Origin: Eubacteriales bacterium
GTDB taxonomy: Bacteria; Bacillota; Clostridia; Lachnospirales; Lachnospiraceae
Direction of reading: 5' to 3'
Length of the DNA stretch: 41,959 nucleotides
Assembly (NCBI GenBank): GCA_030527665.1
Contig: JAUNAK010000019.1
Location: 1 to 41,959 of the forward strand
A model generated the notes under the pieces. That model saw nothing but the letters and a program-made list of their open reading frames with translations, was not told where the DNA came from and ran no database searches. Shown one piece after another: positions 17,109 to 39,186 of the stretch. The stretch's first letter is position 1, and every line of letters begins with the position of its first letter. A program made the position numbers and the translations under genes.

Positions 17109-17116
17109 ATTTCTAC

Positions 17117-21761: not shown

Positions 21762-22511
21762 TCACATTCTCCAGCGGCCTTCTGCTTCCAGCTTCCGCAT
21801 GGCGTCTTCTACCTTTTCAATATCCTCCGGATTATCCACTCCCAGACTGTCGGATTCCATCTCCAGGATCTTGATCCGGTAACCGTTTTCCATAAAACGC
21901 AGCATTTCCACATCTTCGATCTGCTCCAGATATCCGCGTTCCGTCCGGGAGTAAAAGAGCAATGCCTCCCTTGATAAACCGTACAGCCCCAGATGCCGTT
22001 TGTAGGCAACCGGCAGTCCCCGTTTGGATCGGGGAATCGGTGAACGTGACAGATACAGCAGGTCCCCGTTTTCGGCCGCAGCCGCTTTGACGATGGAGAC
22101 CTCCTCCACATTCTGGTCCGCTTTCAATGCCGTCATGGTATTGATCACCTCTGTCTCTGGATTTGCCAGTTTATAATCCACGATCCGCTGAATGACCGAA
22201 GGCTCGATCATCGGCTCATCTCCCTGGATATTAACGAAAAAATCGGCATCGGATCCGGCAGCGATCTCTCCCAGACGATCGGTACCTGTCGGATGAGCGT
22301 CCGAGGTCATACGAACCGGAATCCCGTATTCTTCACATGCCTTTCGAATCTCTTCACTGTCGGTCGCCGCCAGAACTTCATCAAATGCCTTCACCTGCGA
22401 AGCCTGTCTGTATACCCACCAGATCATCGGCTTGCCGCAGATCAATGCCAGCGGCTTTCCCGGAAAACGGGAACTCTGATATCGTGCCGGAATTACACCA
22501 ACGATTTTCAT
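21762..22511 (-). CDS. KdsB-like CMP-sugar synthetase (3-deoxy-ulosonate cytidylyltransferase)
   Basis: 249 residues, the usual KdsB length (about 250). It shows 'VIPARYQSSRFPGKPLALI' (CTP-binding), 'AATDSEEI', 'VNIQGDEPMI' (metal Asp) and 'YKRHLGLYGLSREAL', all standard in CMP-Kdo synthetases. The enzyme links CMP to the anomeric carbon of a 3-deoxy-2-ulosonic acid. Kdo synthesis belongs to Gram-negative LPS and some capsules, and no kdsA, kdsC or kdsD is here, so the acid may be another one or be made elsewhere. The GT52-like gene just upstream is a fitting transferase. AAAAGGAGAG precedes the ATG. Confidence 0.9.
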   Translation of the reverse strand: MKIVGVIPARYQSSRFPGKPLALICGKPMIWWVYRQASQVKAFDEVLAATDSEEIRKACEEYGIPVRMTSDAHPTGTDRLGEIAAGSDADFFVNIQGDEPMIEPSVIQRIVDYKLANPETEVINTMTALKADQNVEEVSIVKAAAAENGDLLYLSRSPIPRSKRGLPVAYKRHLGLYGLSREALLFYSRTERGYLEQIEDVEMLRFMENGYRIKILEMESDSLGVDNPEDIEKVEDAMRKLEAEGRWRM

Positions 22512-24765: not shown

Positions 24766-27036
24766 CTAATGGATACCGCTGGCTGTCGGACTGTGTTCCG
24801 GGATCCGCTTCTCCACCGGCGGATAATGGTAAAAGTCGTAATAGGCTCTGCGGAGATATCCCTCTGTGTCCGCCGGAACACTGACCATCCGGTCACCCAG
24901 CGGGATACGGCTGCTTCCGGCAAACCAGCTCTGTCTGTACCGCGTGTGAATATAGGGCAGAAATCCATTGGACATGAAGTAGTCCTTTGTGCAGGTATTC
25001 TCATATCGGGTGCAGATCCGGTCATGGATCCGGTAGATCATTTTCAGCGGAATCAGTTTTCCTGCCGTCGATAAGCCCCATACAGCCAGCCGTGTCTTTC
25101 TGTCCTGATTCCGATATTCCTGCTTATCTACGTAGGCACGATGTCCCATTCCCAGTCCGTAGATTCCCCGTACCAGTGTCATCTGCCGTTTATGCTTTTT
25201 CGGATCATCCGATGCCTTATCAAGAATAAAAATATCCAGAGGAAGCTTATTCTCAAAGCGGGGATCACATTTTCCGGCAACTTTGCGGAATACATTTCCA
25301 GGCACCGGTTCTTTCATATAAAGCACCCGGCACATAAAATCCAGAAAGCCGCCGATCCCGGACGCATCCAGATAGCAGAAATCCTCTCCCAGTTCCTTCG
25401 GAGCAACTCTGCGAAAAACTTCGAAATCCTTTCTGGTCATCGCAATATCCACATCATCATCCCAGGGAATGATATCCCCGTGACGAACAGCTCCCAGAAG
25501 CCCTCCGAATACCAGATAGTAATGAATATCATATTTTTGACAGATGCGGTCCACCTCATCCAGAAGCAGGTACAGGATCCGATGAATCGTATCCAGATAC
25601 TCCCGTTCTGCCTTACATAACTCCGATACATCACAGATCTGCTCAAAACGTTCACCTGCCGGAAGCCGGAATTCTCCCATGTCTTCACCTGCCACAGACA
25701 GTCGAACCGTCGTATCACGGTCCGCAGTCAGTATCAGCTGCAGCCCGCTTCTGGAGATTCCCGGATCCTTCAGAACAGCGGCAAAGCTTTCCGTGAAGTT
25801 TTCTCCTGCAATATGGCTGACTACATAGGGATCCTGGTCATACTTCAGACCAGGATGCCCGGTCTCAGCCGCTCCCATATATACAATATGTACATCGGCA
25901 GCATCCGCTTCCAGTCGAACCGTATAGCCTCTGGCATCCAGAAGCGATAATTTTCCCTTCTGCACATGTTCCGGATACAGACCGTTCTCTCTTGCCAGCT
26001 GCTCCGCAAAGGCGGCATCGAAGGAATCTTTTTTTCGTTCCGGTATCCTGGCAAGCAGACCTTCCATCTGCTCCAGTGACATGCCGTATACACGGTAAAA
26101 CAGTTTTGCATAGCTGGGCGTAAGCCTGTATTTCGAAGATAATGCGTATTCTTCACAATATCCCCATTGATAGATCTTCCGGAGCGGTTCGATCGTACTT
26201 CGGATCACATTCTGCATCGGTTCTGTCCGATAAGAGGTTCCAAATGTCCGGTTCATGCTCCCGGCAAACTGTTCCACCGGAAGATTTCCCGCTCCTTTCC
26301 CCATTCCCATCAGGGATCCGTCGATCAGAACCGGTCTGTTCAGATGCAGCTCTGCCGCATGCATGCCATGCGCCAGTGACAGATCCAGATTGTTATGAGA
26401 GTGGATACCGACAGCCATTCCGCCGGGAAGGAGCCGATCCGCTGTCTTCAGATGCTCAATCACTTCCTCTTCGCTCATACAGCCGAAACTGTCCACCACA
26501 TACACACCGGCGGCCTCCGGCAGCTGCTTTGCGATAGAGACAAGCAGATTTTCATATTCATACTCGCTGTATCTGGTACAGACCATCGGCTGTACCATCA
26601 GCACATAACCTTTTTCCAGAATAGAACGTCCTGCCTGCAGCGCCTGCGCCGCTTTTTCTTTATGAAAACAAAGGCGGACAGCATCGATACCGCCGGCATG
26701 ACGAGCCGGCAGTTCCTCCGGGGGATATTTTCCATAGTCGATCATGACCGTATAGAGTATCCCCTCTTTTTTCCCGTCGGACAGCACCTTCTCCGCAGAC
26801 ACCATATCCGCATACTCGGTTCTTCCTTCGCTGCTTCCCTTCTTCTTATCCAGATAGCCCAGCTCAATGCATTCCACACCGGAATCTTCCAGCGCATGCA
26901 GAATCCGGCGCATGGTGGCAGCACCAAAATTAAAGTTATTGACACAGCCTCCGTCACGCAGCGTACAATCCAGGATCCGTACGGAACGGTTTTGTTTTGC
27001 TGCAGCAGGGCGGCTGTTGTTGCTTACTTGTGTCAT
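24766..27036 (-). CDS. DRE-TIM aldolase-LicD fusion protein
   Basis: 756 residues with two catalytic parts. Residues about 18-300 are an HMGL-like/DRE-TIM domain related to 4-hydroxy-2-oxovalerate aldolase: 'ILDCTLRDGG' (Arg-Asp) and 'IHSHNNLDLSLA' (HxHN metal ligands). Residues about 340-465 form a beta-rich linker domain of unknown family. Residues about 470-756 are LicD: 'YYLVFGGLLGAVRHGDIIPW' followed by the acidic DDDVD. LicD proteins transfer phosphocholine or related phospho-groups from CDP donors to glycans; the aldolase domain would join pyruvate to an aldehyde or cleave the product. I do not recall a characterised protein with both. GAGGA precedes the ATG, 9 nt after the GT-C stop. 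Confidence 0.88.
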   Translation of the reverse strand: MTQVSNNSRPAAAKQNRSVRILDCTLRDGGCVNNFNFGAATMRRILHALEDSGVECIELGYLDKKKGSSEGRTEYADMVSAEKVLSDGKKEGILYTVMIDYGKYPPEELPARHAGGIDAVRLCFHKEKAAQALQAGRSILEKGYVLMVQPMVCTRYSEYEYENLLVSIAKQLPEAAGVYVVDSFGCMSEEEVIEHLKTADRLLPGGMAVGIHSHNNLDLSLAHGMHAAELHLNRPVLIDGSLMGMGKGAGNLPVEQFAGSMNRTFGTSYRTEPMQNVIRSTIEPLRKIYQWGYCEEYALSSKYRLTPSYAKLFYRVYGMSLEQMEGLLARIPERKKDSFDAAFAEQLARENGLYPEHVQKGKLSLLDARGYTVRLEADAADVHIVYMGAAETGHPGLKYDQDPYVVSHIAGENFTESFAAVLKDPGISRSGLQLILTADRDTTVRLSVAGEDMGEFRLPAGERFEQICDVSELCKAEREYLDTIHRILYLLLDEVDRICQKYDIHYYLVFGGLLGAVRHGDIIPWDDDVDIAMTRKDFEVFRRVAPKELGEDFCYLDASGIGGFLDFMCRVLYMKEPVPGNVFRKVAGKCDPRFENKLPLDIFILDKASDDPKKHKRQMTLVRGIYGLGMGHRAYVDKQEYRNQDRKTRLAVWGLSTAGKLIPLKMIYRIHDRICTRYENTCTKDYFMSNGFLPYIHTRYRQSWFAGSSRIPLGDRMVSVPADTEGYLRRAYYDFYHYPPVEKRIPEHSPTASGIH

Positions 27037-27045
27037 TATGTATCC

Positions 27046-28449
27046 TCAAAACATACCCGAGTTCCTGGCTGCTGCCAGAAATGCAGGAATCGTAAAAGTC
27101 AGAAACAGAAGCAGAAATCGCAGACGGATCAGATGCATCCGGTCACTCTCCTGTCCCTTTGCAAAATCATCCAGTGCATATTTCGGATGCTTAAACAGAA
27201 AGACTGCCAGAAAGACCGCCGACAGTATGGAATTGGTGGTATTGGCATCGATGGACGGAAGAAAATCCTTTCCCACGACACTGTATTGCGTAAAATCAAA
27301 GATCCGGTTCCATACCAGAATACTCAGCAGATTATAATCTGCATTAAGCGGGTAAAAGCTCATCGTCAGATGAATGAATACCACTGCCGTCAGGGCATCG
27401 ATCCACAGGAATTTCTCGATGTGCCGGCTGATAAACATTCCCAGAACCCAGAACGGGGTCATGAAGATCAGCCACTGCGGGTGCCATTTGGAAAATGCAA
27501 AGATACCAAAACAGATTCCGGAGGACAGATACAGCGACCAGGCCGTTTCCTCCTTTTTGCTTTTCGGATAGACAAAATAAGCCCAGAGCACGATTACCAC
27601 ACAGATCAGCTTGGTGTAGCTGATGGATGCGACACCGGTATCGAAATTTCCGACAGAAACATAATTCAGCGCATTGAAACCAAGCACACTTGCCCGGAAG
27701 TTTGCCGACGGATAATACACAGCCAGTTCCGCCAGAAACGGAAATGCCATCACCAGCAGATATTTGAAAATATGCTGCACTCTTTTCTCCCGAAGAACCA
27801 GCATTGCGACAAAGGGAACCACCGCAAAATACTTGCAGGTCACAGCCACACCGAACCAGAGAGAAAACAGATACATATCCTTTCCCTCGTTCCGATAGTA
27901 ATAATATAACCCGAGGATCACAAAAAATACCGTGATGATATCGTACTGGGCAAAGATAAACTGGCTGTAAAAGCAGAAGGGCGTGGTCATAAATGCATAT
28001 GCAGCCACAGATGCTTTTCGTTCTCCCATTCCCATCACTTTCGCCGTTTTCCGAAGCATCCAGGCACTTCCGCCGTAGAACAGCAAAGACAGAAGCTTAT
28101 ACCAGTAGGCATAATACAGATTAAAAACGGCAATTCCCGGAGGCTCCGAAAGCCCCAGCAGCTTCAGCGGAAGATTCCAGATTGCAAAGAGCCCGAAGGT
28201 GGTCGGCATATAGTTGGCACCGTAATCCTGTGTCCACTCGTGTACATGATCATAAAAACCGCCGATTCCATGGTAATAGATCCAGGAACGGTTTCCTGTA
28301 TAAAGTGTATCGACATGGATATAGCTTATAAAGCAAAACAAGGCGATCACGGCAAGAAGAACAAGATCTCCCCGTGACAGCTTATCTGTTTTCCCCCACA
28401 TGGCGGTCATTTTCTCTTTCATTCCGCTGTTCTGTTTCTTATTTGTCAT
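27046..28449 (-). CDS. GT-C family membrane glycosyltransferase
   Basis: 467 residues with about eleven membrane spans. The start at 28449 is preferred over 28470 because TAAGGAT precedes it and the longer form has no ribosome site. The extracytoplasmic first loop holds polar and aromatic residues ('YHGIGGFYDHVHEWTQDYG'), 'FAQYDIITVFFVILGLYYYY' and 'FSKWHPQWLIFM' resemble motifs of GT-C mannosyl/glucosyl transferases, which use polyprenyl-phosphate sugars outside the membrane. With the GtrB-like enzyme and flippase it could complete a three-component glycosylation system. It might instead be the missing polymerase, but the GT-C look is stronger. Confidence 0.8.
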   Translation of the reverse strand: MTNKKQNSGMKEKMTAMWGKTDKLSRGDLVLLAVIALFCFISYIHVDTLYTGNRSWIYYHGIGGFYDHVHEWTQDYGANYMPTTFGLFAIWNLPLKLLGLSEPPGIAVFNLYYAYWYKLLSLLFYGGSAWMLRKTAKVMGMGERKASVAAYAFMTTPFCFYSQFIFAQYDIITVFFVILGLYYYYRNEGKDMYLFSLWFGVAVTCKYFAVVPFVAMLVLREKRVQHIFKYLLVMAFPFLAELAVYYPSANFRASVLGFNALNYVSVGNFDTGVASISYTKLICVVIVLWAYFVYPKSKKEETAWSLYLSSGICFGIFAFSKWHPQWLIFMTPFWVLGMFISRHIEKFLWIDALTAVVFIHLTMSFYPLNADYNLLSILVWNRIFDFTQYSVVGKDFLPSIDANTTNSILSAVFLAVFLFKHPKYALDDFAKGQESDRMHLIRLRFLLLFLTFTIPAFLAAARNSGMF

Positions 28450-28498
28450 AGTTGTATCCTTAACTTCCATTCAAGTCGAGCTCTGCGAGACTTCGCGC

Positions 28499-28560: not shown

Positions 28561-28651
28561 ATTTATCTCAGTCGGAGATCAGACTCCCACTGATGTGCTT
28601 TTATAATTGCTCACCACTTGCAGAAGAGGGAGTCTTCTCGCCTGAGATAAA
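28561..28651 (+). repeat. Dispersed palindromic element, copy B, overlapping the rfbG 3' end
   Basis: Outer arms TTTATCTCAG (28562-28571) and CTGAGATAAA (28642-28651) bound imperfect inner arms around AGACTCCC and GGGAGTCT. The right half (28602-28651) is the part shared with copies A and C. It covers the last about 16 codons and the stop of rfbG. Confidence 0.75.
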
Positions 28652-29815
28652 CGCCTTCTCAAATCGATCGATCTGCGCCTGCATGACCGGCCGGATATCT
28701 TCTCCTGCCGCATCGGCCGCATACCATTCCACTGTCACTTCCATGGCCGTGTCCATATTCCAGACCGGTGACCAGCCGAAAGTCTTCTTCAGCTTTGTAC
28801 AGTCCAGAGTAAGGATCTTCGCCTCGTGGGGTGCCTTGTTCCCGTTTTTCCCGTCTGCACCGTCCGGTGTTCTTCCTGCAGTCTCCTCCGGTCCCGTATG
28901 GTTTTCTGCCGTGTTTCTGCAGCTTTCCGAAACCGGTACGGAAAGGAGCGCCCCATCCGGTTTCTTTTCCGCCCGGCGATTCCAGCTTTCAAGAAAACAT
29001 CCGGTAAGTCTGCCGACGGTATAAAAATCACAGGGATCGGGTCCTGCATTATAGCTTCCTGCCAGATCCGGATCCGCATATTGGCCGGCAGCGATCATCA
29101 GATAGACATAGACCGGATCCAGCACATGCTGGAAGGGACGGACCGCATCCGGATTGCGAAGCTGCACGGCTTCTCCCTTTATTGCTGCCCGCACACAGTC
29201 GGGAATGATCCGGTCTGCCGCAAAATCACCTCCGCCGATCACATTGCCGGCCCGGACGGTTGAAACGGAAACCTGTTTTTCCCGCAGAAAAGACCGCAGA
29301 TAGGACGCTGTGACCAGCTCGGAACAGGATTTGGAATTGGAATACGGATCAAACCCGTCCAGAACATCCTCCTCCGTAAAGGCTTCAGCTTCTTCCGTGT
29401 TTCGATAGACCTTATCCGTTGTAACATTTACAAAGGACCGCACCGATGCGGTTCTTCGAATACATTCGCAGACATTGACAGTCCCCATCACATTCACGGC
29501 ATAGGTATCTACCGGATTCCGATAGGACTCCAGCACGATCGGCTGCGCTGCCATATGAATGACGATCTCCGGCTGCACCTCCTCGAAGACCTGCAGCAAA
29601 TGCGGCAGATCCCGTATGTCCCCGATCTCGGATCGGATCCTGCCGGCAATACCGCTTCTTTTGAACAATACGGCATCTGCCGCAGGTTCCCGTGCATACC
29701 CGGTCACTTCCGCACCCATTTCAGCCAGTACCATGGACATCCACGTCCCCTTGAACCCGGTATGTCCGGTAAGAAGCACTCGCTTTCCTTTGTAAAACTC
29801 TCTGTCAAAAGTCAT
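28601..29815 (-). CDS. rfbG: CDP-glucose 4,6-dehydratase
   Basis: 404 residues (family usual about 360). Extended SDR enzyme: 'LLTGHTGFKGTWMS' NAD-binding motif, 'NVTTDKVYRN' with the catalytic Thr, 'PYSNSKSCSELV' (YxxxK). It converts CDP-D-glucose to CDP-4-keto-6-deoxy-D-glucose in the cytoplasm, the second step of the 3,6-dideoxyhexose route, with rfbF and rfbH in the same operon. Two oddities: a hydrophilic, low-complexity insert at about 285-333 and a C-terminus ('KTPSSASGEQL') supplied by palindromic element B. The catalytic core is intact. Confidence 0.93.
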   Translation of the reverse strand: MTFDREFYKGKRVLLTGHTGFKGTWMSMVLAEMGAEVTGYAREPAADAVLFKRSGIAGRIRSEIGDIRDLPHLLQVFEEVQPEIVIHMAAQPIVLESYRNPVDTYAVNVMGTVNVCECIRRTASVRSFVNVTTDKVYRNTEEAEAFTEEDVLDGFDPYSNSKSCSELVTASYLRSFLREKQVSVSTVRAGNVIGGGDFAADRIIPDCVRAAIKGEAVQLRNPDAVRPFQHVLDPVYVYLMIAAGQYADPDLAGSYNAGPDPCDFYTVGRLTGCFLESWNRRAEKKPDGALLSVPVSESCRNTAENHTGPEETAGRTPDGADGKNGNKAPHEAKILTLDCTKLKKTFGWSPVWNMDTAMEVTVEWYAADAAGEDIRPVMQAQIDRFEKAFISGEKTPSSASGEQL

Positions 29816-29836
29816 TTCCGGTATTCCTTCCTGCGC

Positions 29837-30799
29837 TTATTCCTCATCAAAATTGATCCTTCGCTCCTCCACAACTACCGGACGATGGATCACACGGGTA
29901 TTGATATTCAGAATATACTCTCCCATCACTCCCATAAAAAACAGCATTATGCCGCTCATAAAGAACATACCGATGACCATCGGCGCTGTTCCGGCTGAAA
30001 ACTGATGCCAGTGCGTCAGCTTCATGATCAGATACACGATTCCGGCAACAAAACTGCAGAAAGAACTAAGTACACCGACGAATGTACAGAGCCGAAGCCC
30101 CACCTTGGTATAGGAGGTAATGCTCAGCATGGCTGCATCATAGAGGGTATAGAAGTTATTGTGGGTTTTTCCCGCTCTCCGCAGCGGCTGCTCATATTCC
30201 ACGGTCGTCAGGTTAAAACCGGCTCCGTATTCCGCAACGATTCCCCTCACAAAAGGCACCGGATCATCCAGCTCACGAAGAAGGGATATAAAGGTCCTGT
30301 CATACAGACCGAAACCGGTAAAGTGTTCGATCATCTGCACACTGGACATGTTTTTGATCATCTTGTAATACAGAGTCCGCAGTCCGTAGATCAAAGCATT
30401 TTCCTTACTGGAGCTTTTGACGCCGCTGACGATGCGATGCCCCTTCTCCCATTCCGCCACGAACCGCGGCAGGATCTCCGGCGGGTCCTGAAAATCACAG
30501 CACATCGTAATCGTACAGTCTCCGGTCGTCTGGCACATGCCGTGAAACGGAGAATTGAACTGGCCGAAATTGGTCACATTGAAAATAGCCCGGATCTTTT
30601 TGTTGTCCGCACAAAGCTCCTCCAGCTTTTCTCTGGTTCCGTCCGTGGATGCGTTGTCGATAAACAGAAGTTCATAATCGTACCCGGACAGTTCTGTCTG
30701 CAGAACCCGGATCACCGCCTCACTGATGGGAACCACATTTTCAACTTCGTTATAGCAGGGAATCATAACACTGATCTTTTTCATTTTCTTCTTACTCAT
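29837..30799 (-). CDS. GtrB-like polyprenyl-phosphate glycosyltransferase
   Basis: 320 residues. GT2 domain with 'ISVMIPCYNEVENVVPISEA', 'LLFIDNASTDGT' and 'CCDFQDPPEILP' (the D-x-Q-D-P-P motif of DPM1/GtrB enzymes), then two C-terminal membrane spans (about 232-295). Such enzymes transfer a sugar from a nucleotide donor to undecaprenyl phosphate on the inner face. Its start overlaps the epimerase stop by 4 nt (ATGA), so the two are translationally coupled, suggesting the epimerase's product is its donor sugar. Confidence 0.92.
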   Translation of the reverse strand: MSKKKMKKISVMIPCYNEVENVVPISEAVIRVLQTELSGYDYELLFIDNASTDGTREKLEELCADNKKIRAIFNVTNFGQFNSPFHGMCQTTGDCTITMCCDFQDPPEILPRFVAEWEKGHRIVSGVKSSSKENALIYGLRTLYYKMIKNMSSVQMIEHFTGFGLYDRTFISLLRELDDPVPFVRGIVAEYGAGFNLTTVEYEQPLRRAGKTHNNFYTLYDAAMLSITSYTKVGLRLCTFVGVLSSFCSFVAGIVYLIMKLTHWHQFSAGTAPMVIGMFFMSGIMLFFMGVMGEYILNINTRVIHRPVVVEERRINFDEE

Positions 30800-31749
30800 T
30801 TCCTATCATACTCTGTCTGTGACCGGCACCAGCGGATCGTACGTTCCGCCCCTTCCGCGAAATCGATCTCAGGAACAAAACCGGTATCTGCCGTCAATTC
30901 CGTAAGATCCGCACACAAATGCATCACCTGCTTCGGCCCATAGGGAATTCTGCCGAACCCCGGCTCCAGCGACGGATCGATCTGATCCCGAAGGATCCGC
31001 ACATAATCAGCCAGCGGCCGTTTCTGTCCGCTGCCGATCGGATAGACCTTACCGGATATTCCTTTTTCTCCGAGAAGATACAAGGCTCTTCCGCAGTCAT
31101 CCGCATACAGATAATCCCAGATCTGCTCTCCCCCGGAAAGCACCGGCTGTTCACCGCGCAGAAAGGATGCAATACACTGCATGATCATCGTCTGCCGGCG
31201 GTCTCCCGGACCGTAGATACTGAGGATCCTGGGCCAGATATGTTCAATGCCAAGTTTTAAGCAGAGTTCTCTGGACATCTGCCCGGCACACAGCTTTGCC
31301 ATCCCGTATCCGTTTTCCGGAAAACAGGGCGTATCCGCACGCAGTGCCGCCTCCTGTCTGCCGTATTCCGCCTGTGAACCGGCACCGACAAATCTGCGGC
31401 ATCCCAGTTCCTTTGCGGTATAAACCGCATCCAGTGTGTACTGAATATTTTTTACCTGACCGGACAGATCGTCTCTGGTGCCGCCGAAGGTCCCGTCCCA
31501 GGCCAGATGATAAAAAACATCCACGCCCTTCTTTTCCTTCTTATCGATCGTCCGTACCATCGCCGGAAGCTGCTCCAGTTCCTGCAGACCGCATTCCAGA
31601 ATATGGAGCTGTTCGGATTCCGGCAGAACATGCTTCCGCTTCGAATCCGGGCGGCAGACTGCAATTACCTCGCAATGATCTGCCAGTGCCTGCCCGATCA
31701 GAGCCAGACCGACCGCCCCTGTTGGTCCTGTGATCAGTATTCTCTTCAT
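30796..31749 (-). CDS. NAD-dependent epimerase/reductase of a CDP-sugar
   Basis: 317 residues, extended SDR fold: 'ILITGPTGAVGLALIGQAL' (GxxGxxG), 'GAGSQAEYG' (catalytic Ser) and 'YGMAKLCAGQM' (YxxxK). It resembles sugar 4-ketoreductases/epimerases such as the CDP-abequose/paratose and YerF group, but substrate cannot be assigned from sequence. It lies between the ThDP enzyme and the GtrB-like transferase, a position suited to reducing the ketone left after ThDP-dependent C2+ addition. GGAAAGGG precedes the ATG. Confidence 0.87.
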   Translation of the reverse strand: MKRILITGPTGAVGLALIGQALADHCEVIAVCRPDSKRKHVLPESEQLHILECGLQELEQLPAMVRTIDKKEKKGVDVFYHLAWDGTFGGTRDDLSGQVKNIQYTLDAVYTAKELGCRRFVGAGSQAEYGRQEAALRADTPCFPENGYGMAKLCAGQMSRELCLKLGIEHIWPRILSIYGPGDRRQTMIMQCIASFLRGEQPVLSGGEQIWDYLYADDCGRALYLLGEKGISGKVYPIGSGQKRPLADYVRILRDQIDPSLEPGFGRIPYGPKQVMHLCADLTELTADTGFVPEIDFAEGAERTIRWCRSQTEYDRK

Positions 31750-31807
31750 AGATTCCCTTTCCTCGTCTGTATTCTGCTGTTTCAGCTTCCAACCGCTGAG
31801 ACATCTT

Positions 31808-31855
31808 GTTATTACTCACCACTTGCAGAAACGGAAGTCTTCGCTTTAAAGATAC
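31808..31855 (+). repeat. Dispersed palindromic element, copy C
   Basis: Lies in the 110-bp gap between the ThDP gene stop and the epimerase start, same orientation as copy B. It shares the core CTCACCACTTGCAGAA with B and is slightly shorter and more diverged at its distal end (GCTTTAAAGATA). Confidence 0.7.
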
Positions 31856-31859
31856 CTAC

Positions 31860-33710
31860 TTACAGCTTCTCAGCCGTTTGTCGGATCGCTTCGTACTCTT
31901 CCCTTGGCAGGAAGGGAGACATATCATCCAGTGACGGCGATACGATCCGTCCGTCCGGAAGCACGCGGGAGCCCAGCTTCGGTTCAAAATTCTGTTCCGG
32001 GTCCAGCATGATCTCAGCAATAACCGGTCCATCGGTATGAAGAACCTCTTTTGTCTGTTTCTCTGCCATCGTTATGTCTTCGATCCGGATATAGGGAATG
32101 CCATACGCCCAGGCAATTTTTTCCATATCCGGGAAGCTGAGACCGTTTCCGTCACTGACACCGACCAGCGGAGGCTGGAAGGAATTTTTCTGCGTCTGAC
32201 GAATGGAATGATAGCCATTGTTATTCAGATAAAAGATCTTCAGGTTCATCCGGTTGTATACAACGGTCTGCAGTTCCTGCAGATTCATCTGAAAACTGCC
32301 GTCTCCGTCAACACAGACCACGCGTTTTCCCTTCTCTGCGACGGCTGCACCAATGGCAGCCGGAAAACCATATCCCATCGCCGCACAGCCGGAATTGGTG
32401 AACAGACGCTGTCCCTTTTTGATCTTTGCAGCCTGAAAAGTCACAACACAGGCGGATCCGTTACCGCAGATCACCTTGTCCTCTTCCTCCAGTACCCGGA
32501 AAAACTCTGTCATATAGGCATAGGGATTCATCGGTGTATGTGTCTCATAGAACGCCGGTCGAACCGCCGGATAGCGTTCTTCCAGCTCTCTGCACCATGC
32601 AAGCCATGCGGATCGGTCGGTACATGTCTCTGTTTTCTCTCCCTCCGCACCGAAAGATGATTTGAACGAACCCGCCCCCGCTGTTTCCGCCAGCGACCGC
32701 AGCACATCCTTCACATTGGCATGGACCGGCAGGTCAATGGCAAGTGTTGGCTTCTTCAGCTCGTTCTCATCGATATCCACCATGATCCTGTATGCCTGCT
32801 GTGCAAACTGCAGACGGTTGTAGCTGATCATTCGAATATTCATTCTGCATCCGAGGACCAGCAGCAGATCACAGTTCTGTACAATAAAATTGCCGGCACG
32901 GGTTCCGACGGTACCCGGTTTTCCGACATTCAGCGGATGGGAAGCCGGCAGAAGATCGTGGGCATTCCATGCCGTCAGTACAGGTATCTGCAGCTTCTCG
33001 ATGCATGCCAGAAATTCCGGATACGCATCCGCAAGCCGGATAGCGGTTCCTGCCAGAATAACCGGCCGTTCTGCCTGTTCGATCCGGCGAAGGATCTCCT
33101 CTGTCTGCCTTTCATCATAGACCGGCATATCCGGATACGCCGCCTCTGCAGGATCGAATCCGGCAAGTTCCTCCGTCTCGATCACCGCAGCCTGCACGTC
33201 CAGCGGAACATCCAGCCAGACCGGACCGGGCCTGCCGTTTTTTGCCAGAAACAGAGCTTTCTCCAGGTGATAACGGATCTGCATCGGGTCGGTGACCATG
33301 ACCGCATACTTGGTTACCGGTGCCGCCATATCCACGATGTTGATCTCCTGATCTCCCAGCTGACGCAAAGGGAGATCTGTACTCCACAGCGTCGTCTCCC
33401 GCTTCACCTGTCCGGATACGATAAACATGGGAATGGAATCCACCCAGCCGCCCATGACACCTGTCAGTGCATTGGTACCGCCCGGACCGCTTGTCACACA
33501 GACCAGTGCCAGCCTTCCGGATAAACGTGTATATCCCTCTGCAGCGATCGCACATGCCTGTTCATGGTGATTGTACGTGCAGTTCATTCCTTCCTTATGT
33601 CCGAAGGCATCGTTCAGATGCATGGCACCGCCGCCGGTTACGGTAAAGCAGTCGGTAATATTGTTTTTCACAAAGAAATCCGCCATGTACGCGGCAAGTT
33701 TCATTTTCAT
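31860..33710 (-). CDS. Acetolactate-synthase-like ThDP enzyme for sugar modification
   Basis: 616 residues in three domains (N-terminal PYR about 1-180, central about 195-340, C-terminal PP about 390-570). Glu50 in 'YNHHEQACAIAAEGYTR' is the ThDP-activating glutamate; 'VDGDGSFQMN...LNNNGY' (about 466-497) is the ThDP/Mg motif. It resembles acetohydroxyacid synthase and YerE, which decarboxylates pyruvate and adds the two-carbon unit to CDP-4-keto-3,6-dideoxyglucose. It has no ilvN-type partner and is embedded with rfbF/G/H, so a role in a branched-chain sugar is favoured over valine synthesis. The aldolase immediately upstream may supply the 2-oxoacid donor. A hydrophilic insert lies at about 343-368. 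Confidence 0.92.
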   Translation of the reverse strand: MKMKLAAYMADFFVKNNITDCFTVTGGGAMHLNDAFGHKEGMNCTYNHHEQACAIAAEGYTRLSGRLALVCVTSGPGGTNALTGVMGGWVDSIPMFIVSGQVKRETTLWSTDLPLRQLGDQEINIVDMAAPVTKYAVMVTDPMQIRYHLEKALFLAKNGRPGPVWLDVPLDVQAAVIETEELAGFDPAEAAYPDMPVYDERQTEEILRRIEQAERPVILAGTAIRLADAYPEFLACIEKLQIPVLTAWNAHDLLPASHPLNVGKPGTVGTRAGNFIVQNCDLLLVLGCRMNIRMISYNRLQFAQQAYRIMVDIDENELKKPTLAIDLPVHANVKDVLRSLAETAGAGSFKSSFGAEGEKTETCTDRSAWLAWCRELEERYPAVRPAFYETHTPMNPYAYMTEFFRVLEEEDKVICGNGSACVVTFQAAKIKKGQRLFTNSGCAAMGYGFPAAIGAAVAEKGKRVVCVDGDGSFQMNLQELQTVVYNRMNLKIFYLNNNGYHSIRQTQKNSFQPPLVGVSDGNGLSFPDMEKIAWAYGIPYIRIEDITMAEKQTKEVLHTDGPVIAEIMLDPEQNFEPKLGSRVLPDGRIVSPSLDDMSPFLPREEYEAIRQTAEKL

Positions 33711-33792
33711 AAAGAATCTCCTGTCTGATCGGCTCCTCAGCTCTCATGTATATAGGATGGATCTGCGAATCTCGAAAAGAGATCGCCTGTGC

Positions 33793-35394
33793 TCAAATGT
33801 CATATAACGTATCCGTAAGAAAAACCGTCTCAATATCCGCACGAAGTTTTCGAAGTGCAGCGGAAACCGCCCGATTGATCTCCTGTGATTCCAGATCACT
33901 GTAATGATATTCCATCTTCTGATCCACGTAATTGGTATGAAAGGCTCCCGCATAGCCGTCAAAGCCTGCCATATATACTCTTTTGTGCTTCAGCCGGATC
34001 ATCACCTTCAGCAGCATCAGCATCGGATTGTCGCGGAATTCGGCTTCTCCGCATAACAGATACGGAAAAGACAGCTGATAGGAAAAATCTCCGCTTGTCT
34101 TTGCCACATTGGAAGTCGCGATCACTTCCAGATCTCGCTTTCCGGACAAGACCGCTGCCTGCTGCACATACCGCTTGGCATTGCTCAGAAACAGACAATC
34201 CGCCGCCGGTTCAACGGGGATAAAATTCACCGAGATCACCAGCGGATCCTTTTCTATCATAAATGCCTGTATCCGATCCTTCTGCAGACGGATCGAATTT
34301 CCGGGACCGAGCAGAAGGATCTCTCTTCCCTCTGTTTTTTTCTTCAGCCTTCGGATACTCTCTTCATCATTGACAGAGACAGCCAGATACTCATAGTACA
34401 GTTTTTCTATATAGGCTTCCTTATACAGAAGTTTCTGCCCGCCTTCCAGCTTCTGCAGAATCTCATTGACGGAATGAACGGAAAGCGTCCGCTTATTCAG
34501 CAGATAGGACACATAATTGGGATGACAGTCATTGAAAGCCGCAATAAAGTGCTTCAGATCATATCCCCATGCCGGCTGCGGTGTCAGTGGCGCAATGCTC
34601 ACGTCGATCGCCTCCAGCAGCTGACTGATCTTGTATTTTTTTCCATAGGCTGCATTCAGATGCATGGCCAGAAGTTCCACCGGTGCATTTCCGGCTCCTT
34701 TTCCGCATCCGTAAAGGGTTCCGTCAATCACCAGATCCCTTCCGGATGTTTTTCCTCTCTTCAGAAACTCGATGGCATTGGCATACCCCATCTGAAAATT
34801 GTTATGCCCGTGATAGCCGATACCGATCAAAGGATCCAGATGTGCATCCAGCAGTTCAAAATAATGCAGCAGATTATTCTGATGCATGAGACCGTAGGTA
34901 TCCACCATGGATACTGCATACGGCCTGACCTGATTGGCGAGCCGGATCAGATCCAGCATTTCTTCATCTTCATAGCTGGTCACCGATACCAGCTGGGCAA
35001 ATACACAGTATCCCTTTTGCTTCAACGCTTCGCAGTAAGCCATTGCCTCCCTGCGAAGGTGCTTTTTGAAGATCACCCGGATGCCGTCCAGCCAGGATTC
35101 CGCTGCAGGCCGGATCAGATCCAGGCCGCAGGTTCCATAGTCGATCATTCCGACGACCATTGTATTTTTTCGATCCATCCCCCCGTAGATCTGTCTGACC
35201 GGATCTGTTCCGGGCATGATGCTTCGATCCAGATCGGTTATTCTGCGCTCATCCAGAAAGCCGATCTCAATAATATCCACCCCGGCATCCACGATTCGTT
35301 CAAAAATACTGATCAGATGATCATGACCGAATTCCCAGTCATTGATATATCCTCCGTCCCGTAAGGTACAGTCCAGTAATTGTATCCTGTTCAT
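33793..35394 (-). CDS. DRE-TIM aldolase with DUF115/GT42-like C-terminal domain
   Basis: 533 residues. The start is at 35394 (GAAGGA before it); the longer frame to 35421 would include that ribosome site. Residues 1-320 are an HMGL-like aldolase: 'LLDCTLRDGGYINDW', 'GYHGHNNFQMGYANAIEF' (HxHN). Relatives such as DmpG/BphI cleave or form 4-hydroxy-2-oxoacids from pyruvate plus an aldehyde. Residues about 350-533 form a separate domain starting 'ILLLGPGNSIRLQ', with 'VYMAGFDGYAGA', which recalls the DUF115/MAF or CstII-type Rossmann fold; this link is weak. It lies between rfbH and the ThDP gene, so it probably shares their pathway. Confidence 0.87.
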   Translation of the reverse strand: MNRIQLLDCTLRDGGYINDWEFGHDHLISIFERIVDAGVDIIEIGFLDERRITDLDRSIMPGTDPVRQIYGGMDRKNTMVVGMIDYGTCGLDLIRPAAESWLDGIRVIFKKHLRREAMAYCEALKQKGYCVFAQLVSVTSYEDEEMLDLIRLANQVRPYAVSMVDTYGLMHQNNLLHYFELLDAHLDPLIGIGYHGHNNFQMGYANAIEFLKRGKTSGRDLVIDGTLYGCGKGAGNAPVELLAMHLNAAYGKKYKISQLLEAIDVSIAPLTPQPAWGYDLKHFIAAFNDCHPNYVSYLLNKRTLSVHSVNEILQKLEGGQKLLYKEAYIEKLYYEYLAVSVNDEESIRRLKKKTEGREILLLGPGNSIRLQKDRIQAFMIEKDPLVISVNFIPVEPAADCLFLSNAKRYVQQAAVLSGKRDLEVIATSNVAKTSGDFSYQLSFPYLLCGEAEFRDNPMLMLLKVMIRLKHKRVYMAGFDGYAGAFHTNYVDQKMEYHYSDLESQEINRAVSAALRKLRADIETVFLTDTLYDI

Positions 35395-35423
35395 AATGAA
35401 TCCTTCTTTGTATTCTGCCACTT

Positions 35424-36773
35424 TTATCGTCCCAGTGCCCTGCAGATACAGGCCGCCATGTAATCGATCATCGCATCGGTCATTCCCGGATACACGCCGA
35501 TCCAGAAAGACTGCCGCATGATCCTGTCCGTATTTGCAAGGCTTCCGGCGATCCGATAGGCATCTGTATCCCGAATCGTATCAAAACAGGGATGATAAAT
35601 AATATTTCCGCTGAAAAGAAGCCGTGTCTGAATATTATGCTGTTCCAGATAGCCGGTAATCGTATTTCGCTCTACACCGCATTCCTCTTTCACAGTGATC
35701 AGAAAACCAAACCAGGAAGGATCGCTGTTCTCCGCCGGTTCCGGAAGGATCAGACAGTCGGAAACCGGTTCCAGTGCCTGACGCAGACGCTTCCAGTTTG
35801 CCTTTCTGCGTTCGGTAAAATCCGGTACTTTCTTCAGCTGTTCGACTCCGATCGCTGCCTGCATATCCGTCACTTTCAGGTTATATCCCAAATGGCTGTA
35901 CACATACTTATGATCATATCCCTCCGGCAGCATTCCGTAGGTCCCCTCAAATCGATGTCCGCACATATTGTCATGTCCGGAATGGCAGATACAGTCTCTG
36001 CCCCAGTCCCGGTAACTGAGGATCAGCCGATGCAGCAGAGGATCATTGGTATATACACAGCCGCCTTCCCCCATCGTCATATGATGCGGCGGATAAAAAC
36101 TGGAAGTTCCGATATCTCCCCATGCCCCCGTTAACCTGGTCTCTCCGTCAATGGTATAGGTACTTCCGAGAGCATCACAGTTATCTTCCACAAGCCAGAG
36201 CCCGCGGCGGCGGCAGAACTCCCGGACCGCCTTCAGATCAAAGGGATTCCCCAGTGTATGAGCGATCATGACAGCCTTGGTTCGTTCGCTTACTGCCCCT
36301 TCCAGTGCCTGCGGATCAATATTGTACTGCGGAATCGTTACATCCACGAAAACCGGTACTGCTCCGTACTGCAGGATCGGTGCGATCGTCGTCGGAAAGC
36401 CGCAGGCAACCGTAATAACTTCATCTCCGGGAAGAATCCGCCGGTCTCCCAGCTCCGGAGCCGTCAGCGTCATGAAAGCCAGCAGGTTCGCCGATGAGCC
36501 GCTGTTTACCAGATGTGCAAAGCGGACTCCCATATAATCAGCAAACATTTTTTCAAACCGGTCTGCAAACCGTCCCGTCGTCAGCCAGAAATCCAGCATG
36601 GAATCCGTCAGTGCACACATTTCCTTTTCATCGTATACCCGGGAGGAATAGGCGATCCGATCCCCCGGCTGAAAATCCTTTTCCGACTCTATTTTCTTAT
36701 ACTCTTCATAGTATGCGGCAACCAGAGATTTGATCTCTGCTCTGGCTTCCGATTCACTGTTCCATTTTGCCAT
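35424..36773 (-). CDS. rfbH: CDP-4-keto-6-deoxyglucose-3-dehydrase (E1)
   Basis: 449 residues, aminotransferase fold without the PLP lysine: 'TSSFYPPHHMTMGEGG' has His (230/231) in its place, the mark of this PMP enzyme. Cys199, Cys261, Cys263 and Cys271 ('DNCDALG', 'RDCICHSGHDNMCG') are the expected [2Fe-2S] ligands. 'GYDHKYVYSHLGYNLKVTDMQAA' is family-diagnostic. It removes the 3-hydroxyl to give CDP-4-keto-3,6-dideoxy-D-glucose, needing electrons from a reductase (RfbI/E3) that is not in this window. It follows rfbF after a 92-nt gap and precedes the aldolase. Confidence 0.96.
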   Translation of the reverse strand: MAKWNSESEARAEIKSLVAAYYEEYKKIESEKDFQPGDRIAYSSRVYDEKEMCALTDSMLDFWLTTGRFADRFEKMFADYMGVRFAHLVNSGSSANLLAFMTLTAPELGDRRILPGDEVITVACGFPTTIAPILQYGAVPVFVDVTIPQYNIDPQALEGAVSERTKAVMIAHTLGNPFDLKAVREFCRRRGLWLVEDNCDALGSTYTIDGETRLTGAWGDIGTSSFYPPHHMTMGEGGCVYTNDPLLHRLILSYRDWGRDCICHSGHDNMCGHRFEGTYGMLPEGYDHKYVYSHLGYNLKVTDMQAAIGVEQLKKVPDFTERRKANWKRLRQALEPVSDCLILPEPAENSDPSWFGFLITVKEECGVERNTITGYLEQHNIQTRLLFSGNIIYHPCFDTIRDTDAYRIAGSLANTDRIMRQSFWIGVYPGMTDAMIDYMAACICRALGR

Positions 36774-36865
36774 GACAGCTACTTCCTTTCTCAGACCGGA
36801 CGAACCTTACGCTTCAACAGCTTTTTCTTTCTGTCAGGAATCCGTATCTCAGCAATAAAATACCT

Positions 36866-37645
36866 TTAATCCCAGTATTTCCAGGGTGCCTTTCCGGATT
36901 CCCAGTATTTCTCCAGAATCTGTTTCTCCCGAAGAGAATCCATGCACTGCCAGAAACCGTTATGCCGGTAACTCATCAGTTCCCCTTTTTCTGCCAGCAC
37001 CTCCAGAGCGACCTGCTCGAATACCGTTTCATCTCCCTCCAGATAGTCAAAGATGTTCGGCTGCAGCACCATAAAGCCGGCATTGATTGCCACACCGTCT
37101 CCGGCATTTTTCTCACGAAAAGCCCGTACGGCACCGACATCACTGATATCCAGAACCCCTTTGCTCTGGTTCTGGATCACGGACGTTAAGGTGGCCGTTT
37201 TTCTGTGTGAATGATGGAAATCAACAAGCGCATCGATATTGACATCGCAGACCGCATCACCGTAGGTCAGCATAAACGGCTCATCCCCCACATATTCCCG
37301 TATCCTTCGGATACGGCCTCCGGTCATCGTATGCAGTCCGGTATCGGCGATCGTGATCTTCCATGGTTCCACTGAACTTTTTTCCATCTTCATGGAATGT
37401 CTGCCTCCCGTAAAATCAAAGGTCACATCACCGGCATTCAGATAATAATCCGCAAACCACTGCTTGATGTACTCCTGCTTATAGCCTGCACAGACAATAA
37501 ATTCATTGTATCCGTAATGCGCATACCCTTTCATAATATGCCAGAGTATCGGTTTTCCTCCGATCTCCAGCATCGGTTTGGGTACCAGAACACTCTCCTC
37601 ACTGATGCGGGTTCCGAATCCGCCTGCCAGAATAACTACTTTCAT
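36866..37645 (-). CDS. rfbF: Glucose-1-phosphate cytidylyltransferase
   Basis: 259 residues (family about 257). The start at 37645 overlaps the flippase stop by 4 nt (ATGA); the longer frame to 37711 adds a non-homologous tail. 'VVILAGGFGTRISEESVLVP' then 'KPMLEIGGKPILWHIMKGYAHYGYNEF' are typical of RfbF, and 'LTYGDAVCDVN' holds the metal Asp. It makes CDP-D-glucose from CTP and glucose-1-phosphate, committing sugar to the dideoxyhexose pathway with rfbG and rfbH. Confidence 0.96.
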   Translation of the reverse strand: MKVVILAGGFGTRISEESVLVPKPMLEIGGKPILWHIMKGYAHYGYNEFIVCAGYKQEYIKQWFADYYLNAGDVTFDFTGGRHSMKMEKSSVEPWKITIADTGLHTMTGGRIRRIREYVGDEPFMLTYGDAVCDVNIDALVDFHHSHRKTATLTSVIQNQSKGVLDISDVGAVRAFREKNAGDGVAINAGFMVLQPNIFDYLEGDETVFEQVALEVLAEKGELMSYRHNGFWQCMDSLREKQILEKYWESGKAPWKYWD

Positions 37646-39186
37646 CGATGAATAACCCTTTCCAGCAGTTTTCTGCTTTCCTTGAATTCTGCAGTTCTGC
37701 CATATATACACAGGAACAATAGGTTCGGAAGGATCAGACAGATCCCTGCTTTACCTGCAAGGACAGCTGCCGAATGCCAGAATCCGGGGGCAGGTATCCG
37801 ATCCAGGAGCGAAACCACTCCATAGGTAGTTCCTCCGACAGCAAACGCCGCCGCTGCATAAAACCCGTGTGCCAGAAAAAATCGCTCCAGCCCGCCTTCC
37901 GTAAAATAGTACTTATATAGAAGTACGGCACCTCCGGCAAAATTAAAAACAAAATACGAAATCAGTGTTGCCAGAATGATGCCGAACAAGCCCATCCATC
38001 GGATCAGAAGCCAGTTCAGAAGCAGATTTGCCGCTGCTTCCAAGACGGATATATACCGTGCCTGCCACCAGATTCCGGCAGATTCCGAATACAGAGTCCG
38101 AATATCACTCATTTTCAGCACATAGAAATACACGGCGAAGATAACCGCGTAACCCACAGGCAAAGTCATTTCCTCGCCGGCCCACAGCCGCATAAAGGGC
38201 TGATACAGACACAACAGACAGATCGAACACCATCCGCTGATCCACATAAACAGAAAATTGATCATGTGCATGTCTTTTCTGTTTTTTTCTATCGAATCCA
38301 TGGCAATGCTGTTTCCGACACCTCCGGCCATGGACGTTTTGATCACGGCAATGATCATGACCACAGAATCCATAATGTAATAGTAATTGCCGTATACAGC
38401 GGTGATCGTTAAGCCGAGAAAAGCGGATACAAACATGGAATCGAAAGCATTTCGGGACAGCATAGCCACCTTGCGGATCATCAGCCCTGCTACCTGCTTA
38501 CGAATCTCTCTGTATTCGCTCTTTTCCAGTTCCCCTTCTGCTCTATAATCCGGATACTGTTTTTTTGCCCTCCAGCCGCAGAGCAAACTGTAAATGACCG
38601 AAGAGATCGGCATCATCAGCGCATAGAGATAATAATCCCTGGCAAACCATATAAAGAAAGCCTGTCCCAGATACATGCCCAGCTGTGTAAAAATATGGAT
38701 GCGTCCGCTGATGTCATCCCTCTGATGCGCCGTCAGGATCGCTTTTCGATTTGGAAAAATGAAGAAGTTGACACAGGTATTCAGCAGATAGATCAGATAC
38801 AGCAGATAGATATTGATATCCGGCGGCGTATTACCTCTGATCAGATGCGGAAGAAACGGAAGCATACATATGCCTGTCACACCGACTGCTATTCCGACCG
38901 TCCGATAGATCTTCTTATAATACTGCAGAAGTGCATTGATCTTACGGTCGTCATTCTCTGCAATCGGCTTATACAGACTGTAAATGATCGCCGTTCCGAA
39001 TCCCATTTCCATCAGATTCAGCATCTGCAGGATCGAATAAAACAAACTGGTCAGCCCCAGATAATCCGCCCCGATCAGATGGATGATCATGGTTCGTACA
39101 ATGAACGGAAGAATAACCCCGGATATCTTGTCGATCTCACCGACAATGATATTTCGCTTTGTATTTTCCGTGCGTGTAAGCCTCAT
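37642..39186 (-). CDS. Lipid-linked glycan flippase (Wzx/MATE-like)
   Basis: 514 residues with about 13-14 hydrophobic spans, of the polysaccharide transporter type (MOP superfamily). 'FIVRTMIIHLIGADYLGLTSLFYSILQMLNLMEMGFG' near the start and 'YKPIAENDDRKINALLQYYKK' follow the family pattern of Firmicutes capsule flippases. It moves an undecaprenyl-linked sugar or oligosaccharide to the outer face. It is the first gene of the cluster, behind an extended -10 promoter. An AGGAG lies about 12 nt before the ATG, a little far. Confidence 0.93.
   Translation of the reverse strand: MRLTRTENTKRNIIVGEIDKISGVILPFIVRTMIIHLIGADYLGLTSLFYSILQMLNLMEMGFGTAIIYSLYKPIAENDDRKINALLQYYKKIYRTVGIAVGVTGICMLPFLPHLIRGNTPPDINIYLLYLIYLLNTCVNFFIFPNRKAILTAHQRDDISGRIHIFTQLGMYLGQAFFIWFARDYYLYALMMPISSVIYSLLCGWRAKKQYPDYRAEGELEKSEYREIRKQVAGLMIRKVAMLSRNAFDSMFVSAFLGLTITAVYGNYYYIMDSVVMIIAVIKTSMAGGVGNSIAMDSIEKNRKDMHMINFLFMWISGWCSICLLCLYQPFMRLWAGEEMTLPVGYAVIFAVYFYVLKMSDIRTLYSESAGIWWQARYISVLEAAANLLLNWLLIRWMGLFGIILATLISYFVFNFAGGAVLLYKYYFTEGGLERFFLAHGFYAAAAFAVGGTTYGVVSLLDRIPAPGFWHSAAVLAGKAGICLILPNLLFLCIYGRTAEFKESRKLLERVIHR

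Follow-up and report, generated by a model that had tools for sequence, protein, structure and literature searches.

We examined a 41,959-nucleotide stretch of DNA (the window; contig JAUNAK010000019.1 of assembly GCA_030527665.1) from a Eubacteriales bacterium of the family Lachnospiraceae. Between positions 28601 and 37645, the window encodes RfbF, RfbG, and RfbH, an aldolase fusion protein, a thiamin diphosphate (ThDP)-dependent enzyme, a short-chain dehydrogenase/reductase (SDR), and a glycosyltransferase (Table 1). All of the genes that we name in this interval lie on the minus strand, and the cluster is part of a longer surface-polymer gene set. We think it likely that this cluster makes a 3,6-dideoxyhexose, activated with cytidine diphosphate (CDP), whose branch at C-4 has more than two carbons; this view rests on the presence of the genes, their conservation, their pairing, and phylogeny. 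Put another way, the bacterium probably builds an unusual branched surface sugar by joining a fragment from its own aldolase to an activated keto-sugar. All of the genes on which a sequence-only reading of the window had based such a pathway are present where it placed them. Its gene list is incomplete, as it omits the C-terminal domain of the aldolase fusion and the glycosyltransferase.

The same reading had RfbF, RfbG, and RfbH forming CDP-4-keto-3,6-dideoxyglucose, and comparison supports this as the probable route: all three proteins exceed the curated cut-offs for their families (TIGR02623, TIGR02622, and NF011936, respectively). The match of RfbF to TIGR02623 begins at residue 23 of the longer, GTG-initiated frame, so we consider the start at 37645 to be correct. 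RfbG has an apparent low-complexity insertion of ~60 residues after residue 278, and its match to TIGR02622 is split into two stretches. In an alignment with 3bcx, a solved structure of the E1 dehydrase, RfbH has His230 at the position of the aminotransferase lysine and keeps Cys199, Cys261, Cys263, and Cys271. These align with C193, C251, C253, and C261 of E1, its cluster ligands. The alignment bears out the claim that RfbH has the full cysteine set with histidine in place of lysine. Four cysteines and this replacement are described as the marks of E1 (PMC8987622).

The ThDP enzyme contains the three domains of the decarboxylase superfamily (PF02776, PF00205, and PF02775). Among solved structures, the closest to it is 8rph (381 bits); acetolactate synthase I (6lpi) scores 236 bits. 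8rph is JanthE, which is YerE-like and whose range of donors spans short, long, and 4-hydroxy compounds (PMC12188165). The window's enzyme and JanthE also share a C-terminal tail that acetolactate synthase I lacks; they differ in the cofactor motif (CDG instead of GDG). In a tree of 92 ThDP sequences (midpoint-rooted, with sequences under 560 amino acids left out), the window's enzyme lies in a clade of 61 sequences (clade I), and the other 60 are all from loci with the aldolase. The sister clade (clade II) has 21 sequences, 14 from loci without the aldolase and 7 from loci with it; in the latter loci, the gaps between the two genes are 0.1-1.9 kb, as in clade I. The tail motif matches 54 of the 61 sequences in clade I, 13 of the 21 in clade II, and JanthE; it does not match acetolactate synthase I. 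Some positions separate the two clades completely, including those of Gln117, Ala247, Pro265, and Pro396 in the window's enzyme; Gln117 lies three residues away from the counterpart of an active-site position that was engineered in JanthE. The split between the YerE-like and the acetolactate synthase sequences is starred in the tree, with long-branch warnings, a midpoint root, and just one characterized member.

Could the ThDP enzyme instead be a paralog of acetolactate synthase, or make a free acyloin, and not act on the CDP-ketosugar? It is a member of the decarboxylase superfamily, and the NCBIfam model on which it scores highest is one for acetolactate synthase (338 bits, below the cut-off of 538). 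However, its nearest solved relative is JanthE, with which it shares the tail; the genome holds two other synthase-like genes; and the presence of the ThDP enzyme is strongly associated with that of RfbH. Among 145 genomes of relatives (including the window's own), we found the ThDP enzyme in 33 (E ≤ 1e-90) and RfbH in 39 (E ≤ 1e-80), with both in 30. Only 9 of the 112 relatives without the ThDP enzyme have RfbH (P = 9e-20, Fisher's exact test, uncorrected for kinship). Most of the 33 genomes have no aldolase beside the ThDP gene, and therefore this result bears on the link between the ThDP enzyme and the ketosugar in general. Given the similarity to JanthE, the other synthase-like genes, and this association, we dropped a plain acetolactate synthase as the leading interpretation. 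Overall, an acetolactate synthase paralog or maker of free acyloins seems highly improbable, and the enzyme appears to be YerE-like, as had been proposed.

Aldolases of the window's type are usually found with a ThDP gene. We retrieved 77 loci (L005-L081) with the aldolase as the query; the window is not among them. The nearest named relative is the Lachnospiraceae assembly of L005, with 66% identity for the aldolase and 74% for the ThDP enzyme. Other named sources of these loci include Sporofaciens musculi (L008), Pygmaiobacter massiliensis (L030), and [Clostridium] fimetarium (L076). In 70 of the 77 loci, the ThDP gene is directly downstream of the aldolase on the same strand, within 2.2 kb. 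This fraction is conditional on the aldolase query, and the sample behind the ThDP tree is biased by that query as well; counts from the 145 relatives are less biased. A fairer test of the pairing is a search for the ThDP enzyme in the 145 relatives, which yielded 34 places. Eight of these are at least 54% identical to the window's enzyme, and seven of the eight have an adjacent aldolase; the eighth (G031) begins 254 bases from a contig end. Among the other 26 places (51% identity or less), a related aldolase is near in two, G017 (at 2 kb) and G105; we scanned 20 of the 26 with their flanks and judged the other six from the absence of a nearby match. Two loci with weak aldolase matches (L110 and L116, with 71 and 66 bits) were counted as lacking the aldolase. 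Among the ThDP loci of the relatives, 18 lack a strong aldolase match, and five of these (L103, L105, L108, L110, and L111) contain relatives of rfbF, rfbG, rfbH, the SDR, and the glycosyltransferase together.

Because the aldolase and the ThDP gene are so tightly paired, and the full set also occurs without the aldolase, the aldolase looks like a variable donor module, that is, the part of the system that comes and goes. The idea that the aldolase feeds a longer 2-oxo acid to the ThDP enzyme probably holds, to judge from these comparisons. We also considered the aldolase as a bystander; the 70 tight pairs and the ThDP tree weaken this explanation. To our knowledge, the yersiniose pathway has no aldolase, which sets it apart from the window, with its aldolase gene directly upstream of the ThDP gene.

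RfbH tends to be available to these loci. It is encoded inside 33 of the 77 (300 bits or higher). Another 26 are long loci that lack it, and 20 of these are in genomes that encode RfbH elsewhere (58% identity or above). Of the remaining 18 loci, from 17 genomes, 14 are in genomes with RfbH (52% identity or above), four only as pieces. In all, 67 of the 77 aldolase loci are in genomes with RfbH.

The description of the aldolase as similar to 4-hydroxy-2-oxoacid aldolases holds in part. The protein has an HMGL-like domain with the aspartate of the RDG motif, an HxH motif, and a GAGN motif. It shares these motifs and the DRE-TIM fold with two 4-hydroxy-2-oxovalerate aldolases (1nvm and 4lrs) and with the putative aldolase BVU_2661 (3dxi), and its GAGNAP motif aligns with 1nvm and 8ih7. 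Asp12, His194, and His196, which we take to be the metal-site residues, are invariant across 45 aligned sequences. On the other side, TIGR03217 (4-hydroxy-2-oxovalerate aldolase) has a cut-off of 286 bits, and the aldolase reaches just 72.9 bits; a second aldolase domain in the window, which is fused to a LicD domain, reaches 94.3 bits.

Unlike 1nvm, 4lrs, and 3dxi, the aldolase has a fused C-terminal domain of ~200 residues. By sequence, we found no credible Pfam family for this domain, and Foldseek alone gave no match at E ≤ 0.001 (a fold search with the full-length protein reached the aldolase part only). Using VIA-align, its predicted model was assigned to the fold group of the MptE-like kinases, Maf, the CMP-sialyltransferases, and SteA. 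The likeness to an MptE-like kinase, Maf, and CstII (8sd5, 5mu5, and 1ro8) lies in the predicted fold, with marginal sequence similarity; one of the marginal profile matches, around an AGxDGY motif, is to a sialyltransferase. Other fusions occur among the relatives. In L007 (8974-11274) and L039 (8914-11247), the aldolase, the domain with the sialyltransferase fold, and a haloacid dehalogenase (HAD) phosphatase are joined in one protein of 766-777 amino acids. In L121 (2467-5667), a protein of 1066 amino acids has an N-terminal aldolase domain and a C-terminal match to family 2 glycosyltransferases, and a divergent ThDP gene adjoins it.

The partners of the aldolase give hints about its product. 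A HAD phosphatase is present in 46 of the 77 loci, an AroB-like protein in 8 others, both in none, and neither in 23. (We counted HAD phosphatases within 3 kb of the aldolase or the ThDP gene; a profile found 46, and a single-sequence query found 44.) The probability of zero overlap by chance is 4e-4, uncorrected. Both proteins are absent from the 18 ThDP loci that lack a strong aldolase match. Because these partners accompany the aldolase and are absent from the ThDP loci that lack it, their presence suggests that the aldol product is phosphorylated in many relatives. The AroB-like protein, a putative cyclizing phospholyase of the TIGR04425 family, lies beside the aldolase and the ThDP gene in L012, L018, L028, L031, L034, L041, L051, and L060. 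Seven of these eight loci were used to build the cyclase profile, and all four that we scanned with TIGR04425 are above its cut-off. The cyclase loci that we looked at also encode an extra short-chain dehydrogenase. The AroB-like gene suggests a carbocyclic branch in these loci; caryose is a sugar with such a branch.

If so, then the product might not always be a 3,6-dideoxyhexose with an open-chain branch: the acceptor could be another ketosugar in some clusters, or the branch could be carbocyclic. The eight loci with the cyclase fit this explanation, and so does L031, which has rfbF and rfbG in a genome with no match to RfbH (E ≤ 1e-30) and may use a 3-hydroxy ketosugar. The window, however, has the full set of RfbF, RfbG, and RfbH and has no cyclase, and we consider variation of this kind to be a very unlikely account.

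A second type of partner is the CMP-sugar synthetase (CTP_transf_3). Across 126 aldolase domains, we found a ThDP gene alone within 3.2 kb of 83, a synthetase alone near 26, both near 2, and neither near 15. This set is dominated by ThDP-type loci (due to the query), and a few genes were fetched twice (L069/L134 and L098/L121). The synthetase profile was built from the window's KdsB-type protein and from genes beside related aldolases, so its matches in those genomes follow from how it was built. In a separate order-level sample (L146-L170; 25 loci from 24 genomes, with one genus contributing six), a synthetase is within 1.5 kb of the aldolase in 19 of the 25 loci and a ThDP gene in 3, one of which has both. 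As a control, just 3 of the 77 aldolase loci (1.24 Mb) contain a synthetase (100 bits or higher) anywhere, and one of these is L074, in which we saw no ThDP gene. Both kinds of partners use 2-oxo acids, which argues that the aldolase product is a 2-oxo-3-deoxy acid. Overall, three lines of comparative evidence point to such a product: the ThDP partner, the phosphate-removing partners, and this swap of partners.

The CMP-sugar synthetases raise another possibility for the window. The ThDP enzyme might add only a two-carbon unit from pyruvate, which would give yersiniose, and the aldolase might serve a CMP-activated ulosonic acid together with the cluster's KdsB-type enzyme. The window does encode a KdsB-type protein, and a CMP-sugar synthetase is within 3.2 kb of 26 of the 41 aldolase domains that lack a ThDP gene. 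In L080, genes for KdsB, a HAD phosphatase, and the aldolase form one stretch that is divergent from the ThDP gene. Also, the fold predicted for the C-terminal domain of the aldolase includes CMP-sialyltransferases, among others. Yet only three of the 77 window-type aldolase loci have a synthetase, while 70 have the ThDP gene just downstream. Furthermore, the window's KdsB gene sits in a block with the aldolase-LicD fusion, and the order of that block is kept in L134 (from the genome of L069): aldolase, LicD part, two glycosyltransferase-like genes, KdsB, a glycosyltransferase, and an FrhB-like gene. We therefore view a yersiniose product as unlikely.

The KdsB-type enzyme is instead the probable partner of the second aldolase. 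In a tree of 81 of the 126 aldolase domains, the domain from the aldolase-LicD fusion lies outside the ThDP-linked clade, in a group of six with L122, L069/L134, L169, and L155, which is linked to a CMP-sugar synthetase. KdsB (E ≤ 1e-30) is found in 5 of the 145 relatives; in the four besides the window's genome, its distance from a related aldolase is 100 bp or less in three and ~5 kb in the fourth. The aldolase-LicD fusion of the window is linked to KdsB, not to the ThDP gene; it has counterparts in the L005 genome (58% identity) and in L069. The second aldolase and the KdsB-type gene lie outside the interval that the sequence-only reading covered.

Several observations weigh against a long branch made in this way, beginning with the aldolase's score far under the TIGR03217 cut-off. 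Two residues after its RDG motif, the aldolase has Tyr15 (conserved in at least 90% of the 45 sequences), whereas 1nvm, 4lrs, and 8ih7 have histidine; 3dxi also has tyrosine. The C-terminal domain is absent from 6 of the 77 loci. The ThDP gene is not directly downstream of the aldolase in 7 of the 77 loci. In three of these it is elsewhere, and in four (L029, L042, L066, and L074) we saw none; the aldolases of L029 and L042 end within 150 bases of a contig end. Ten loci (L007, L017, L029, L031, L036, L058, L062, L063, L065, and L074) are in genomes without an RfbH of the kind described above. A HAD phosphatase of this type and the cyclase are both missing from the window, and the one AroB-like match in its genome, at 271 bits, is below the TIGR04425 cut-off of 400. 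The aldehyde used in the window's pathway may therefore carry no phosphate, or a phosphatase encoded elsewhere may act. Finally, we could point to no protein in the draft genome (2.95 Mb, 94% complete) as a dedicated E3 reductase for RfbH; the sole FAD_binding_6 protein that we found has 271 amino acids. E1 obtains its electrons from E3, which ferredoxin or flavodoxin pairs can replace in the case of SpnQ (PMC8987622). The E3 step is a gap in the pathway, not a refutation of it.

With these points in mind, we propose that RfbF would form CDP-glucose, RfbG would convert it to the 4-keto-6-deoxy sugar, and RfbH would remove the 3-hydroxyl to give CDP-4-keto-3,6-dideoxyglucose; each of these roles is suggested by a well-scoring family. 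The aldolase would join pyruvate and an aldehyde to form a 4-hydroxy-2-oxo (2-ulosonic) acid. In many relatives, this product is probably phosphorylated and would then be dephosphorylated by the HAD phosphatase or cyclized by the AroB-like protein. The YerE-like ThDP enzyme would decarboxylate the acid and place the acyl unit on C-4 of the CDP-ketosugar, and the SDR would reduce the new ketone. The predicted branch is C4-CH(OH)-CH2-CH(OH)-R. Last, the glycosyltransferase, if it is of the PgfS type, would attach the sugar to polyprenyl phosphate, after which it would be exported and added to a surface polymer.

Much of this chemistry has precedents. ErwE, from erwiniose biosynthesis in Pectobacterium atrosepticum, is a YerE-like ThDP enzyme that uses a hydroxylated 2-oxo acid and whose acceptor is said to be CDP-4-keto-3,6-dideoxyglucose; in vitro, it joins hydroxylated 2-oxo acids to a ketone analog, with a preference for donors longer than C4 (PMC12247030). 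Its host, unlike ours, is Gram-negative. The same paper cites an in silico set of over 200 YerE-like enzymes. MMAR_2332 is involved with caryophyllose, a 3,6-dideoxyhexose that bears a long polyhydroxyalkyl chain on C-4 and belongs to a mycobacterial glycolipid in Mycobacterium marinum (PMC12247030, PMC5706390). Its donor preference resembles that of ErwE, with its acceptance of ketones pending (PMC12247030), and the mutant accumulates a precursor without caryophyllose (PMC5706390). The branch of caryophyllose is 1,3,4,5-tetrahydroxyhexyl (PMC5706390), which appears to fit the CH(OH)-CH2-CH(OH) pattern that we predict from the aldolase and the ThDP enzyme. YerE, from the yersiniose pathway, carries out a ThDP-dependent carboligation at C-4 of the same CDP-ketosugar, but its donor is pyruvate and the branch has two carbons (PMC12247030, PMC4753412).

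Given the reports on ErwE and on MMAR_2332 and caryophyllose (PMC12247030, PMC5706390), neither the idea of a long donor nor an example outside Gram-negative bacteria is new. The suggestion that such a sugar would be new in a Gram-positive bacterium thus does not hold as broadly as it was put: both caryophyllose and gastriose have been described in mycobacteria (PMC12247030, PMC5706390), and C-4-branched octoses, whose branch is assigned to a pyruvate-using complex, occur in antibiotics of Gram-positive bacteria (PMC4753412). Searches of the open-licence literature gave no earlier description of a branched sugar supplied by an aldolase in Bacillota, of the fused aldolase, or of the alternation between the HAD phosphatase and the cyclase. 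Within the literature searched, these three look new; we do not regard novelty in Bacillota as established. The gene arrangement and its spread through gut Clostridia also look new, with the chemistry precedented elsewhere.

A broader interpretation, which we offer tentatively and consider somewhat doubtful, is that the aldolases form a portable "ulosonate" platform. A pyruvate aldolase would make 2-oxo-3-deoxy acids (or their phosphorylated forms) de novo, standing where other bacteria would use phosphoenolpyruvate-dependent synthases for 3-deoxy-D-manno-octulosonic acid (Kdo) or sialic acid. The acids would have two alternative fates, and the window would have one aldolase for each. One fate would be decarboxylation by the ThDP enzyme and joining to the CDP-ketosugar, with dephosphorylation by the HAD phosphatase or cyclization of the branch by the AroB-like protein. 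In the other, a CMP-sugar synthetase would activate the acid, which would then be transferred as an acidic sugar. The domain with the predicted sialyltransferase/MptE-type fold, which is often fused to the aldolase, may bind cytidine nucleotides. The exchange of the ThDP enzyme for a CMP-sugar synthetase predicts a route to ulosonic acids from pyruvate, not from phosphoenolpyruvate. If our proposals are true, then the surfaces of many gut Clostridia bear dideoxy sugars with long or cyclized branches that standard sugar analysis misses. Enzymes that turn pyruvate and simple aldehydes into chiral tertiary alcohols would then be readily available in the aldolase-ThDP pairs.

Table 1. Genes and domains of the cluster and its surroundings, with positions in the window.
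Feature	Positions	Strand	Evidence
Flippase-like membrane protein	37642..39186	-	WZX_like 19 bits (weak; cut-off 300); relatives in L005 and L069
rfbF, glucose-1-phosphate cytidylyltransferase	36866..37645	-	TIGR02623 351 bits (cut-off 300)
rfbH, CDP-4-keto-6-deoxyglucose 3-dehydrase (E1 type)	35424..36773	-	NF011936 701 bits (cut-off 423); alignment with 3bcx
Aldolase fusion, 542 amino acids	33793..35421	-	HMGL-like Pfam domain
Aldolase domain of the fusion (HMGL-like/DRE-TIM, pyruvate-aldolase type)	34402..35391	-	
C-terminal domain of the fusion	33793..34401	-	Predicted MptE-like kinase/Maf glycosyltransferase/CMP-sialyltransferase/SteA fold
YerE-like ThDP-dependent carboligase	31860..33710	-	PF02775/PF00205/PF02776; 8rph (JanthE) 381 bits; tree
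SDR (Epimerase family), candidate reductase for the branch ketone	30796..31749	-	PF01370 102 bits
Family 2 glycosyltransferase, polyprenyl-phosphate (PgfS/ArnC) type	29837..30799	-	PgfS 163 bits (closest NCBIfam family; cut-off 500); hydropathy
rfbG, CDP-glucose 4,6-dehydratase	28601..29815	-	TIGR02622 399 bits (cut-off 278)
Multi-spanning membrane protein, possibly a GT-C glycosyltransferase (a guess)	27046..28470	-	7 hydrophobic segments (simple scan); 44% relative in L005
Second aldolase domain fused to LicD phosphotransferase domain	24766..27036	-	PF00682 58 bits; PF04991 96 bits
KdsB-type CMP-ulosonate (Kdo) cytidylyltransferase	21762..22511	-	TIGR00466 162 bits (cut-off 155); NF009905 281 bits (cut-off 255)

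The SDR has relatives (100 bits or higher) in 46 of the 77 aldolase loci and in 15 of 20 ThDP loci from the relatives. By hydropathy, the glycosyltransferase next to it has two C-terminal hydrophobic helices; its scores are below the cut-offs for the PgfS/ArnC types. The multi-spanning protein matches nothing in Pfam or NCBIfam at E ≤ 0.01. The resemblance of the glycosyltransferase to PgfS and ArnC, along with its multi-spanning neighbor, suggests that a lipid-linked sugar is added outside the cell.

Two glycosyltransferase-like genes lie between the genes for the aldolase-LicD fusion and the KdsB-type enzyme, and the cluster continues to about position 15189. At 15189-17219, a methyltransferase-like domain is fused to a domain that resembles glycerol-3-phosphate or heptose nucleotidylyltransferases, and this protein might activate the substrate of the LicD domain. 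The cluster is flanked on each side by a DUF5648 protein (9397-12954 and 40331-41620), and both are probably secreted.

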